Below are positions 28,664 to 31,702 of a DNA stretch of 64,000 nucleotides, in pieces (positions within the stretch are counted from its first letter, which is position 1; every line of letters begins with the position of its first letter). Below the pieces are notes generated by a model. That model saw only the letters and a program-made list of their open reading frames with translations. It was not told the origin of the DNA and did no database searches. The DNA is from Centipeda artemidis DSM 19719. Lineage in GTDB: Bacteria > Bacillota > Negativicutes > Selenomonadales > Selenomonadaceae. Made by a program: the position numbers and the translations under genes. Where the stretch lies: contig NZ_AUFU01000010.1 of assembly GCF_000426665.1 (NCBI RefSeq), positions 1-64,000 of the forward strand. Reading direction: 5' to 3'.

Positions 28664-28692
28664 TTCTAAAAAATATGACATTATGTTATAAT
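28664..28692 (+). promoter_or_regulatory. Promoter of the first ompM-like gene
   Basis: TATAAT (28687-28692) with a weak -35 TTCTAA (28664-28669), 17-base spacer. Transcription should start near 28699, at GTTGAA, as in the second copy. Confidence 0.6.
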
Positions 28693-28698
28693 AACCGC

Positions 28699-28807
28699 GT
28701 TGAACCGATATGAGGAGCTGCATACGAGGGAACACGGATACTCGTCCTCCTGTATCGGATCAAGATTATTCTTTGATGGCGGGAACATCCCGCAAGGAGG
28801 AATTACC
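28699..28807 (+). promoter_or_regulatory. Structured 5' leader of the first ompM-like gene (candidate RNA switch)
   Basis: TCCTCCT (28745-28751) is complementary to the ribosome site AGGAGGA (28795-28801). Their pairing encloses two hairpins, ATCAAG/CTTTGAT (28759-28764/28771-28777) and GCGGGA/TCCCGC (28779-28784/28788-28793), in a tight three-way junction. Alternatively 28747-28758 pairs with 28705-28717 (12 pairs, one bulged A), freeing the ribosome site. The intervening loop GGAACACGGATA (28729-28740) is closed by CGAG/CTCG. The second porin gene has the same architecture. The pairings are seen in the sequence; the switching is inferred. Confidence 0.6.
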
Positions 28808-30133
28808 ATGAAGAAGACTCTGGCAGCAGCTCTCGCGGCGGCGCTCACGATCGGCGCGGCATCGACCACGTTCGCAGCGGCGAACCCCTTCTCCGACGTG
28901 CCTCGTGATCATTGGGCATACGACGCTGTGACGCAGCTCGCGGCAGACGGCGTTGTCGAGGGCTATGGTGACGGCACGTTCCGCGGTGACCGCAACATCA
29001 CGCGCTACGAGATGGCGCAGATGGTCGCAAAGGCGATGGCGAAGGGCGATATGTCCGCATCGGATCGTGCGCTTGTTGACCGTCTTGCCGCTGAGTTTGC
29101 AGATGAGCTTAACAACCTCGGTGTCCGTGTCTCCAACCTCGAGCGCAACGCGGATATGGTGAAATGGAACGGCAAACTTCGTTACACCTATACCAGCAAT
29201 CGCCACGATGTGACACACAGCAAAGTGAATAATGATGCACTTCTGTTCCGTCTCGAGCCGTCCGCTGAGGTCAACAGCCATTGGCATGTGAAGGCACGTC
29301 TTGATGCGACGACCAACATGAAGAACGATTCCGGGACAAATGGCAGCGATACGGTCACACTGAAGCGTGCTTATGCACAGGGCGACTATACGAACTTCCA
29401 GGTAAAACTCGGTAAGATCGGGCTTTCCTCTCCTGAGAGTAAGGTGCATCCGGGATCCGGCAACCTCCTTACCGATGAAGGCGCAAAATTCTCTGGCGCA
29501 GAGGTTACGTTCGGCAATAAGCTGCAGGCAACCGTACAGGCAGGCCGGTACGCTTTCGGAGGAAATAAGTACAATGGTACCATAAATCCGTTTGCCAGCG
29601 GGGATACCTCGAACTATCAGTCGATCGACCTTAAGTACATGAGCAGTAAGTGGTCGTTTGGTGCCGGTTATTTCCATCTCGGCTCCGAAAACTTCAAAGG
29701 TGCCGTTATACCGGGGCATCCCTATAAAAAAGACGGCAATGATGCTAAGGATGCGAACATTTGGCGCGTCTTTGCCGGGTATCGTTTCGATAAGAATAGT
29801 GCCCTTGGTGGATCCTATGCGAACAACGCAAAGGCGGACAACTTTGACAACGCTTATACGGTCGAGTACGACTATAAGGGAGCAAAGGCTTCCGATAAAG
29901 GGTCATGGGGCGCGTATGTCGCGTACCGTAAACTCGGCGCTTTTGCGGCGATCGCTCCGACGACAGACGGTGCAGGTTACAACCAAAAGGGAATTGAGGT
30001 CGGATTCGACTACGTTCCGTTCAAGAATGTCGTTTTGAAGGCAAAGTACTTCAACGGCAAGGATATGTATGTACCGGCAGGCAGTGACGATAAAGCGCAG
30101 AACCTCTTCGGGCGCGTAGAGTTCCTCTTCTAA
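28808..30133 (+). CDS. ompM: OmpM-like outer-membrane porin with SLH domain (first copy)
   Basis: Negativicute OmpM proteins are trimeric porins whose periplasmic SLH domain binds polyamine-modified peptidoglycan and tethers the outer membrane. The start at 28808 follows AAGGAGGAA and gives a signal peptide (residues 1-24, cleavage near TFAA). The SLH domain (about 26-85) reads NPFSDVPRDHWAYDAV and GYGDGTFRGDRNITRYEMAQMV. A coiled linker ends VSNLERNADMVKW, and a beta-barrel of alternating strands runs to the terminal RVEFLF with C-terminal Phe. 441 residues. It is followed by a terminator and a second, closely related copy. Confidence 0.92.
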   Translation: MKKTLAAALAAALTIGAASTTFAAANPFSDVPRDHWAYDAVTQLAADGVVEGYGDGTFRGDRNITRYEMAQMVAKAMAKGDMSASDRALVDRLAAEFADELNNLGVRVSNLERNADMVKWNGKLRYTYTSNRHDVTHSKVNNDALLFRLEPSAEVNSHWHVKARLDATTNMKNDSGTNGSDTVTLKRAYAQGDYTNFQVKLGKIGLSSPESKVHPGSGNLLTDEGAKFSGAEVTFGNKLQATVQAGRYAFGGNKYNGTINPFASGDTSNYQSIDLKYMSSKWSFGAGYFHLGSENFKGAVIPGHPYKKDGNDAKDANIWRVFAGYRFDKNSALGGSYANNAKADNFDNAYTVEYDYKGAKASDKGSWGAYVAYRKLGAFAAIAPTTDGAGYNQKGIEVGFDYVPFKNVVLKAKYFNGKDMYVPAGSDDKAQNLFGRVEFLF

Positions 30134-30262: not shown

Positions 30263-30291
30263 TTGCAAATATCAGATTCATATGATATAAT
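30263..30291 (+). promoter_or_regulatory. Promoter of the second ompM-like gene
   Basis: TTGCAA (30263-30268), 17 bases, TATAAT (30286-30291). Transcription should begin near 30298. Confidence 0.72.
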
Positions 30292-30297
30292 AGCCGC

Positions 30298-30409
30298 GTT
30301 GAATCTTGGTATAGGAGTTTTGATGTGAGGAAACAAGGATACTCCATCCTCCTGTATCGGATCAAGATTATTCTTTGATGGCGGGAACATCCCGCAAGGA
30401 GGAATTACC
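30298..30409 (+). promoter_or_regulatory. Structured 5' leader of the second ompM-like gene (candidate RNA switch)
   Basis: The 63 bases before the ATG match the first leader exactly, including TCCTCCT (30347-30353) and the ribosome site AGGAGGA (30397-30403). The upstream competing strand has diverged in sequence (30306-30317, against 28705-28717) but still pairs with 30349-30360 over 12 positions, using G-U pairs in place of C-G and A-U. The loop GAAACAAGGATA (30330-30341) differs from copy one at two positions and is closed by GAG/CTC. Retained pairing despite changed sequence is the main support. Confidence 0.6.
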
Positions 30410-31702
30410 ATGAAGAAGACTCTGGCAGCAGCTCTCGCGGCAGCGCTCACGATCGGCGCGGCATCGACCACGTTCGCGGCGGCGAACCCCTTCTCCGACG
30501 TGCCCCGTGACCACTGGGCATATGACGCCGTGACGCAGCTCGCAGCGGACGGCGTTGTCGAGGGCTACGGTGACGGTACGTTCCGCGGTGACCGCAACAT
30601 CACGCGCTATGAGATGGCGCAGATGGTTGCAAAGGCAATGGCAAAGGGGGATATGTCCGCATCGGATCGCGCACTCGTCGACCGCCTTGCCGCCGAGTTC
30701 GCAGACGAGCTCAACAACCTCGGCGTTCGCGTCTCCAACCTCGAGCGCAACGCGGATATGGTGAAGTGGACGGGCGAACTGCGTTATCGTTATTGGAGCC
30801 GTCGTAACGACCACAAGAACGACACAAAGGTCGCTCAAAAAGCAAACAAGGATCAGCTCCAGTTGCGCCTCTTCCCGACGGCGGAGATCAACGATCATTG
30901 GCATGTCAAAGCGCGTCTGACGGCTTCGAGTAATATGAAGACGGATGAGAGCGACAATGTCGTCCTTACCTATGCGTATGCGGACGGCGACTACGGCAAG
31001 TTCCATGTCCAGCTCGGTAAGATGCCGGTCTCCTCGAATGCCGATCAGGGGATCGTTATCGATGATTTCTTCTCGGGTGCACAGGTCTCCTATGGTGACA
31101 AGTGGTCTGTACTTGCAGAAGCGGGCCGCTGGAACCTTGACGATGCCAATAAGAATATTGCTGCAGCGACGGACAAAGCCGCCAACTATCAGGGCATCGA
31201 ACTCGGCTACCGCTCCGGCAAGCTCGTGCAGAGCGGCGTCGCCTATCGTCATTTCTCCAGCGAGGCATTCAAGAGCGCAGCCCTTTACAATAAGAACGGC
31301 GCGCCGCAGGACAAGGCCGATATCTGGTCGGTTGGCGCAAAGTACGCATTTGATAAGAATACTGCACTCAGCGCTGCCTATGCAAACAACACGAAGGCGG
31401 ACGAACTGAAGAAGGGTATGAGCTTCCAGTTCGACTACAAAGGCGCAGACAAGAGCAACATGGGGTCGTGGGGCGCTTATGTGGCGTATCGCCATATCGG
31501 TGCGAACGTAGGCCTTGCACCGACCTTCTCGACAGATCAGCTAACCTCTGTGACCACGAACGGTGCAAAGGGAATTGATCTCGGTCTCGGCTATATTCCG
31601 TTCAAGAATGTTCTGATGCAGGCACAGTATTTCAACGGCAAAGAGCTTAAGACGGACAACAAGGTTCAGACGCTCTACGGTCGCGTCAGCTTCTTCTTCT
31701 AA
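30410..31702 (+). CDS. ompM: OmpM-like outer-membrane porin with SLH domain (second copy)
   Basis: A paralogue of the preceding gene. The signal peptide, SLH domain and linker (first about 120 residues) are almost identical, with few DNA differences. The barrel is clearly different in loops and many strands (430 against 441 residues), though it keeps the final aromatic Phe (RVSFFF) needed for outer-membrane assembly. A conserved core, GSWGAYVAYR, lies near residue 355 in both. The pattern suggests tandem duplication with barrel divergence and continued exchange of the 5' part. Confidence 0.92.
   Translation: MKKTLAAALAAALTIGAASTTFAAANPFSDVPRDHWAYDAVTQLAADGVVEGYGDGTFRGDRNITRYEMAQMVAKAMAKGDMSASDRALVDRLAAEFADELNNLGVRVSNLERNADMVKWTGELRYRYWSRRNDHKNDTKVAQKANKDQLQLRLFPTAEINDHWHVKARLTASSNMKTDESDNVVLTYAYADGDYGKFHVQLGKMPVSSNADQGIVIDDFFSGAQVSYGDKWSVLAEAGRWNLDDANKNIAAATDKAANYQGIELGYRSGKLVQSGVAYRHFSSEAFKSAALYNKNGAPQDKADIWSVGAKYAFDKNTALSAAYANNTKADELKKGMSFQFDYKGADKSNMGSWGAYVAYRHIGANVGLAPTFSTDQLTSVTTNGAKGIDLGLGYIPFKNVLMQAQYFNGKELKTDNKVQTLYGRVSFFF

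Follow-up and report, generated by a model that had tools for sequence, protein, structure and literature searches.

Translational riboswitches and ribosomal protein leaders have in common two exclusive pairings, one of which hides the ribosome site, and an upstream strand that sequesters the anti-site strand. The Thermus slpA leader provides translational control of an SLH envelope protein, and its likeness to the leaders analyzed here lies in leader control, by description only. A further related element is Cyano-1, the motif of the cyanobacterial Yfr2 sRNAs (PMC8400943). Yfr2 has been described as consisting of a 12-nt loop of unknown function on a long stem with a bulge at position -4 (PMC2662882). 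In cyanobacteria, Yfr1 binds the 5' element of Yfr2 and targets porins, which it represses.

The leaders of the two ompM genes in the window (the whole 64,000-nucleotide stretch of DNA analyzed) resemble translational riboswitches and ribosomal protein leaders in these pairings, but differ from them in belonging to structural porin genes and in carrying a 5' arm that mimics the ribosome site. We regard it as probable that they represent a conserved cis-acting leader RNA of porin genes, in which a stem holds the anti-site strand and a loop is read by a trans-acting factor that sets the porin level. This leader is a new family within the known translational leaders, the novelty being its reach over porins of diderm Bacillota and the loop that it has in common with Yfr2. 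The original prediction knew of no described leader family with this layout; this still applies to the leader as a whole, in which Rfam detects no family at gathering score, but not to its apical hairpin, which carries the 12-nt loop of Cyano-1/Yfr2. A permissive Rfam search of the window leader returned only noise, such as Hammerhead_HH9 at 14.9 bits. OmpM is the outer-membrane tether and main porin of diderm Firmicutes. The OmpM structural study makes no mention of untranslated regions, promoters or sRNAs (PMC10628300), and a literature search on the regulation of OmpM or porin leaders, with most subscription journals outside its range, yielded nothing relevant.

The two ompM leaders of the window

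The window genes were assigned to OmpM by the SLH domain (Pfam) and a full-length match to the solved OmpM 8bys, with the signal peptide judged by eye from the N-terminus. The transcript of copy 1 is predicted to start at about 28699, and its start codon is at 28808. Both leaders are members of the training set of covariance model R1, so that the R1 scores given for them are not independent. The features, with the basis of each assignment in parentheses, are as follows.

28687..28692, + strand: predicted -10 box TATAAT of ompM copy 1 (sequence)
28700..28717 (28700-28703 and 28705-28717), + strand: 5' arm of the long stem P1 of copy 1, ribosome-site-like (pairs with 28747-28763 in the MFE fold; consensus fold of 13 genus leaders with compensatory pairs)
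28724..28745, + strand: conserved apical hairpin of copy 1, stem ACGAG/CTCGT, 12-nt loop GGAACACGGATA at 28729-28740 (model R1, 24.4 bits at 28713-28750, not independent)
28745..28758, + strand: 3' arm of P1 of copy 1, with the anti-ribosome-site TCCTCCT at 28745-28751 (sequence, complementarity, covariation)
28759..28777, + strand: helix ATCAAG/CTTTGAT of the closed state, copy 1 (2 of 4 scored pairs changed on both sides in 13 genus leaders)
28779..28793, + strand: hairpin P3 of copy 1, GCGGGA-ACA-TCCCGC, adjoining the ribosome site (97% paired; double changes at two pairs in 13 genus leaders)
28795..28801, + strand: ribosome site AGGAGGA of ompM copy 1 (sequence)
28808..30133, + strand: ompM copy 1, signal peptide, SLH domain and beta-barrel porin (Pfam SLH; PDB 8bys, E 2.5e-41)
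30286..30291, + strand: predicted -10 box of ompM copy 2 (sequence)
30308..30317, + strand: 5' arm of P1, second leader (fold)
30322..30348, + strand: conserved hairpin of the second leader, GATG-T-GAG [GAAACAAGGATA 30330-30341] CTC-CATC, with a bulge at -4 as in Yfr2 (model R1, 32.0 bits at 30314-30352, not independent; fold)
30347..30358, + strand: 3' arm of the second leader, with the anti-ribosome-site TCCTCCT at 30347-30353 (sequence, fold)
30381..30395, + strand: hairpin P3, second leader (sequence, fold, covariation in the genus)
30397..30403, + strand: ribosome site of ompM copy 2 (sequence)
30410..31702, + strand: ompM copy 2, SLH and weak Porin_4 (Pfam)

All stretches on which the original prediction was built are found where it placed them, namely TCCTCCT at 28745-28751, AGGAGGA at 28795-28801, ATCAAG/CTTTGAT at 28759-28764/28771-28777 and GCGGGA/TCCCGC at 28779-28784/28788-28793. 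The pairing of the 5' arm, 28705-28717, with 28747-28758 is likewise present, with its 12 pairs; the energy model bulges G28712, to which a bulge at A28713 is equivalent. In a dinucleotide-shuffle fold test, the leaders of copies 1 and 2 had z scores of -3.8 and -3.4, respectively, and 0 of 200 shuffles were as good in either case. Neither leader contains a terminator-like site.

From the anti-site strand into the region of the signal peptide (28745-28840 and 30347-30440) the two leaders have the same sequence, but their 5' arms and hairpin stems differ, as would be seen if recombination or gene conversion had a boundary within the ompM leader. Upstream of copy 1, its reading frame stays open as far as a TTG at 28700, such that the whole leader (28700-28807) is readable in frame; the ORF list contains no upstream in-frame extension of copy 2. 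Another contig of the same genome (L413, G000:C5:76400-82100) carries three further ompM paralogues, two of which have the hairpin in their leaders, and in the middle one the loop is decayed (GAAAATAAGGACA).

Exclusive pairings around the anti-ribosome-site strand

The idea of two mutually exclusive pairings around the anti-ribosome-site strand is backed by its complementarity, compared with shuffled sequences, and by compensatory changes in the arms and helices. Among 13 leaders of the window's genus, covariation proposed as a check was found in P1, the apical hairpin, the GCGGGA hairpin and the ATCAAG helix, but not in the helix between anti-site and site, which says nothing by itself in the genus because it hardly varies there. 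The GCGGGA hairpin and the ATCAAG helix of the compact junction originally predicted thus show compensatory changes within the genus, but neither of these helices belongs to the wider family; the widespread parts of the leader are the apical hairpin and the two long arms.

The arms were compared across 73 leaders of Selenomonadaceae and 67 leaders of other diderm Bacillota. A match to the -10 box at 5 or more of 6 positions is present in 61 of the 73 Selenomonadaceae leaders and lies 5' of the loop by a median of about 43 nt, which puts the 5' arm at the very start of the RNA. The 5' flank pairs with the 3' flank within the best 5% of shuffles in 50/73 and 46/67 leaders of the two sets, respectively. 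By the same measure, the 3' arm and the ribosome site of the same leader are complementary in 41/73 leaders of Selenomonadaceae (3.7 expected) and 22/67 leaders of the other diderm Bacillota (3.4 expected), kinship being ignored in both counts, and this complementarity is unexceptional in the other 32 and 45 leaders. In controls that used the 5' flank, coding DNA or DNA from further upstream, the count was 1 to 7 leaders, and the leader's own ribosome site beats swapped sites in complementarity to the 3' arm. CCCC occurs in the arm of 31 of the 64 leaders with a GGGGG site vs 3 of the 69 with GGAGG (Fisher p 2e-9, a value that ignores ancestry and base composition), and arm and ribosome site appear to change together between clades. 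When the 5' arm was blocked in silico, the mean opening of the site fell by 0.22 and 0.26 in two leader sets, compared with 0.04 and 0.13 in a control with the arms exchanged for their reverse complements. The leader was accordingly classed as a putative translational switch, with mutually exclusive helices, one of them over the ribosome site, and both supported by comparison.

An alternative explanation is that the element is only a protective 5' stem that stabilizes abundant porin mRNAs, like the E. coli ompA leader, the anti-site complementarity being a by-product. Its location at the extreme 5' end of mRNAs for abundant proteins is compatible with such a role, but an mRNA can be stable without a loop of fixed sequence and without an arm that follows the ribosome site from clade to clade, and we consider this explanation very unlikely.

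For the translational switch, the energy model favors the predicted open state by 8.2 kcal/mol in copy 1 and by 0.7 kcal/mol in copy 2, so that copy 1 may scarcely switch unaided, and copy 2 seems the more switchable of the two. The original expectation that pairing with the 5' end simply frees the ribosome site is not borne out: even in the predicted open state, other bases keep the copy 1 site about 70% paired, and in the MFE state, where the U-rich AUUCUUU just upstream pairs with it, it is about 30% unpaired. Temperature, one of the signals envisaged originally, was rejected along with the RNA thermometer, as the site opening predicted by the energy model is flat from 20 to 48 C.

The conserved hairpin and the genes behind it

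The apical loop of the ompM leader belongs to a conserved hairpin, RAG[GAAACANGGANA]CUY, whose fixed 12-nt loop sits on a longer stem; this stem is predicted to start close to the transcript's 5' end, and its 3' arm tends toward complementarity with the ribosome site of its own mRNA. From GTDB genomes, 79 ompM loci were chosen by protein similarity alone, one of which was cut off, leaving 78 leaders to be read. The strict loop pattern (GAAACANGGANA) is present in 66 of these, and the hairpin with a changed base in 8 more (L052, L055, L062, L064, L068, L069, L078 and L089), for a total of 74/78; it is absent from L035, L038, L050 and L086. Counts per loop position are circular, because the strict pattern fixed most positions, which does not affect the 66/78 and 74/78. 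The ompM leader L068 contains a second copy of AGGAAACA directly 5' of the hairpin (L068:1393-1436).

The three closing pairs are formed in 96-99% of the sequences. In the 62 training leaders, the stem shows 106 double-change cells vs 53.8 in shuffled alignments, and a covariation score of 0.335 vs 0.143 shuffled, with every slid version lower. For 85 distinct model-aligned hits, the score is 0.525 vs 0.183 shuffled, with slid controls far lower; this second alignment was fitted to the model and shares sequences with the training set. As far as these alignments indicate, the loop is strongly conserved and the predicted stem is variable, with compensation.

A covariance-model search, as suggested in the original prediction, was performed with model R1, built from 62 leaders, and found the hairpin in 168 of 200 genomes of the class Negativicutes (E <= 0.05) and in 71 of 398 genomes drawn evenly over the phylum (E <= 0.003). 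An exact-motif search matched 62 of the 398 phylum genomes, and the reversed pattern roughly ten. More than 120 viral contigs (L279-L358 and others) also contain the exact motif AGGAAACANGGANACT.

Outside Negativicutes, 81 of the 82 phylum matches examined precede an ORF with an exported-protein-like start (the exception is L157), and 36 of 37 further matches in the class lead into OmpM or another exported ORF. The distance from hairpin to ORF is mostly 60-120 nt, and about 260 nt in one family. Pfam identified SLH in 23, Porin_4 in 11, OMP_b-brl in 4 and SlpA_C in 1 of 77 downstream proteins, both window copies included, and most of the remaining proteins had no Pfam match at the threshold used. 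The proteins encoded downstream of the hairpin are mostly porin-like and exported.

Omp85 is a mark of an outer membrane. It was found in 56 of 57 hairpin-positive genomes (all except G461), in 0 of 16 hairpin-negative genomes outside Negativicutes, and also in seven Negativicutes genomes without an R1 match. This distribution, together with the exported-protein context, indicates that the hairpin goes with outer-membrane proteins. Five genomes of one Negativicutes genus (G258, G477, G558, G631 and G658; family f2, genus g31) encode Omp85 and lack hairpin matches; the absence of the hairpin from this genus could be a natural loss, and phyletic profiling could point to the partner. Part of family f151 is likewise without hairpin matches. 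As a feature of the majority of Negativicutes genomes and of porin leaders throughout the phylum, the hairpin offers a testable handle on the control of ompM.

The loop might instead be part of a small-molecule or ion riboswitch, with the 12 nucleotides and the closing pairs forming the binding pocket. Such a riboswitch needs no partner gene and therefore fits the phyletic pattern, and both the strong conservation of the loop on a variable stem and the cis position with an expression platform are as expected for one. We consider it unlikely, all the same, because the hairpin is very small for an aptamer, the genes behind it encode structural porins and do not belong to a single metabolic pathway, and a riboswitch would not ordinarily have a free sRNA copy, as this one would in cyanobacteria.

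Relationship to Yfr2 and the candidate partner

A permissive Rfam search connected one porin leader (L151) to Cyano-1 (RF01701), at 26.1 bits and E 0.0087 for 161 bases searched, and the Rfam Cyano-1 consensus loop GAAACAAGGAAA occurs letter for letter in several leaders from outside Negativicutes. When the Cyano-1 model was run over 80 Bacillota genomes, the best scores were obtained in hairpin-positive ones (G702, 33.9 bits; G708, 32.0; G336, 30.3; G541, 26.1). Where the downstream DNA was examined, the best sites lead into exported proteins, and most of the weaker ones coincide with R1 sites, apart from a T-box mimic (G213) and a small number of sites in genomes without the hairpin. The Rfam gathering threshold of 41 bits was reached in 0 of the 80 genomes, the best score of 33.9 bits being from a Negativicutes genome, and the window's own genome gave no match to the model at E <= 10. 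Because the scores are below this cutoff, the leader is not filed as a member of Cyano-1.

With Yfr2, as represented by the Rfam consensus and model, the leaders share the 12-nt loop GAAACAAGGAAA closed by at least three pairs, and the long interrupted stem. The -4 bulge of Yfr2 is present in the second window leader; 62% of ungapped sequences form the fourth stem pair, as do 88% of model-aligned hits, so that the leaders usually lack this bulge. Unlike in Yfr2, the conserved unpaired 5' element GUGUGAGGAG, which is complementary to Yfr1, is not general in porin leaders: no conserved UGUGAGGAG was found 5' of the stem in the leader sequences, and the second leader has TGTGAGGA only inside the hairpin. 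Furthermore, Yfr2 is a free sRNA in cyanobacteria, whereas the hairpin described here is part of a porin mRNA leader, mostly 60-120 nt before the start codon. The hairpin of the porin leaders and that of Yfr2 appear to be the same in loop and architecture, and their common descent is likely; since the similarity to Cyano-1 is below the cutoff and mainly confined to the hairpin, convergence on the loop is possible.

Porins are classic targets of sRNAs, and Yfr1 acts on porins as well as binding Yfr2. These precedents would fit a trans-acting sRNA that base-pairs with either the loop or the 5' arm, in the way Yfr1 pairs with the Yfr2 5' element and represses porins. Yfr1, however, contacts the 5' element of Yfr2 and not its loop, and that element is not conserved in porin leaders, which makes an sRNA a rather improbable partner.

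The GGA motifs that led to CsrA being suggested for Yfr2, although no CsrA homologue was found in cyanobacteria (PMC2662882), have a counterpart in the leaders, where two GGA motifs lie in and beside the loop. The hairpin as a CsrA (RsmA) site, with ANGGA motifs in the loop and CsrA repressing porin translation, is nevertheless the least probable of the explanations considered, hardly to be expected even though the window's own genome encodes CsrA: the A of GGA is not invariant, being replaced in GGC or GGG in six ompM leaders, and 21 of 57 hairpin-positive genomes, several single-contig near-complete genomes of families f159 and f168 among them, have no match to PF02599. CsrA was thereby excluded as an obligatory partner; it could still be a local co-regulator on a Selenomonas leader. 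An RRM protein was rejected as an obligatory partner as well, PF00076 being absent from the window's own genome and from most of the hairpin-positive genomes tested, including those of f159 and f168. Carriers of the hairpin without CsrA or RRM proteins already narrow the list of partners.

In the cis-acting leader that we favor, formation of the stem would allow the ribosome-site-like 5' arm to hold the anti-ribosome-site strand and so permit translation; with the stem opened or kept from forming, the 3' arm would fold onto the ribosome site, and translation would fall. The fixed loop would be the contact point of a trans-acting factor that shifts this balance and so sets the porin level. Most likely, this factor would be a protein conserved between diderm Bacillota and cyanobacteria, other than CsrA or an RRM protein, and Yfr2, a free cyanobacterial sRNA with this loop, would bind it and perhaps titrate it. 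Among the candidate partners, a conserved protein is our first choice, a small ligand the second and an sRNA the third.

More tentatively, a single ancient RNA-recognition system that predates the split of cyanobacteria and diderm Bacillota might read GAAACANGGANA, a possibility that we consider well short of probable. It would exert cis control over most major porin and OmpM mRNAs in diderm Bacillota, and in cyanobacteria the hairpin would have become a free sponge RNA, Yfr2, for the same factor. If so, the outer membrane would have a post-transcriptional regulator that acts across the whole envelope, with a novel RNA-binding protein or ligand. The comparison reopens the question of the purpose of the loop in Yfr2, an abundant cyanobacterial sRNA, and because the same loop precedes porin genes in another phylum, the partner can be sought in a genetically tractable strain of Veillonella.

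Several other matches to Cyano-1 were considered. The one on contig C18 of G213 is a false positive that overlaps the 3' end of a T-box (L401:36-269; mimic GUGGAAACGCGGAAACAC), and one in Thermotoga maritima, among the control genomes, appeared only with E up to 10 and was treated as chance. A Rhizobium leguminosarum plasmid contains an exact 20-nt match to the Cyano-1 consensus (GGTGGAAACAAGGAAACACT; L417:1501-1520), which, at E 2, may be due to chance and was set aside. This match is located 10 nt before a gene for a sugar-binding regulator, and 15 plasmid records of R. leguminosarum match.
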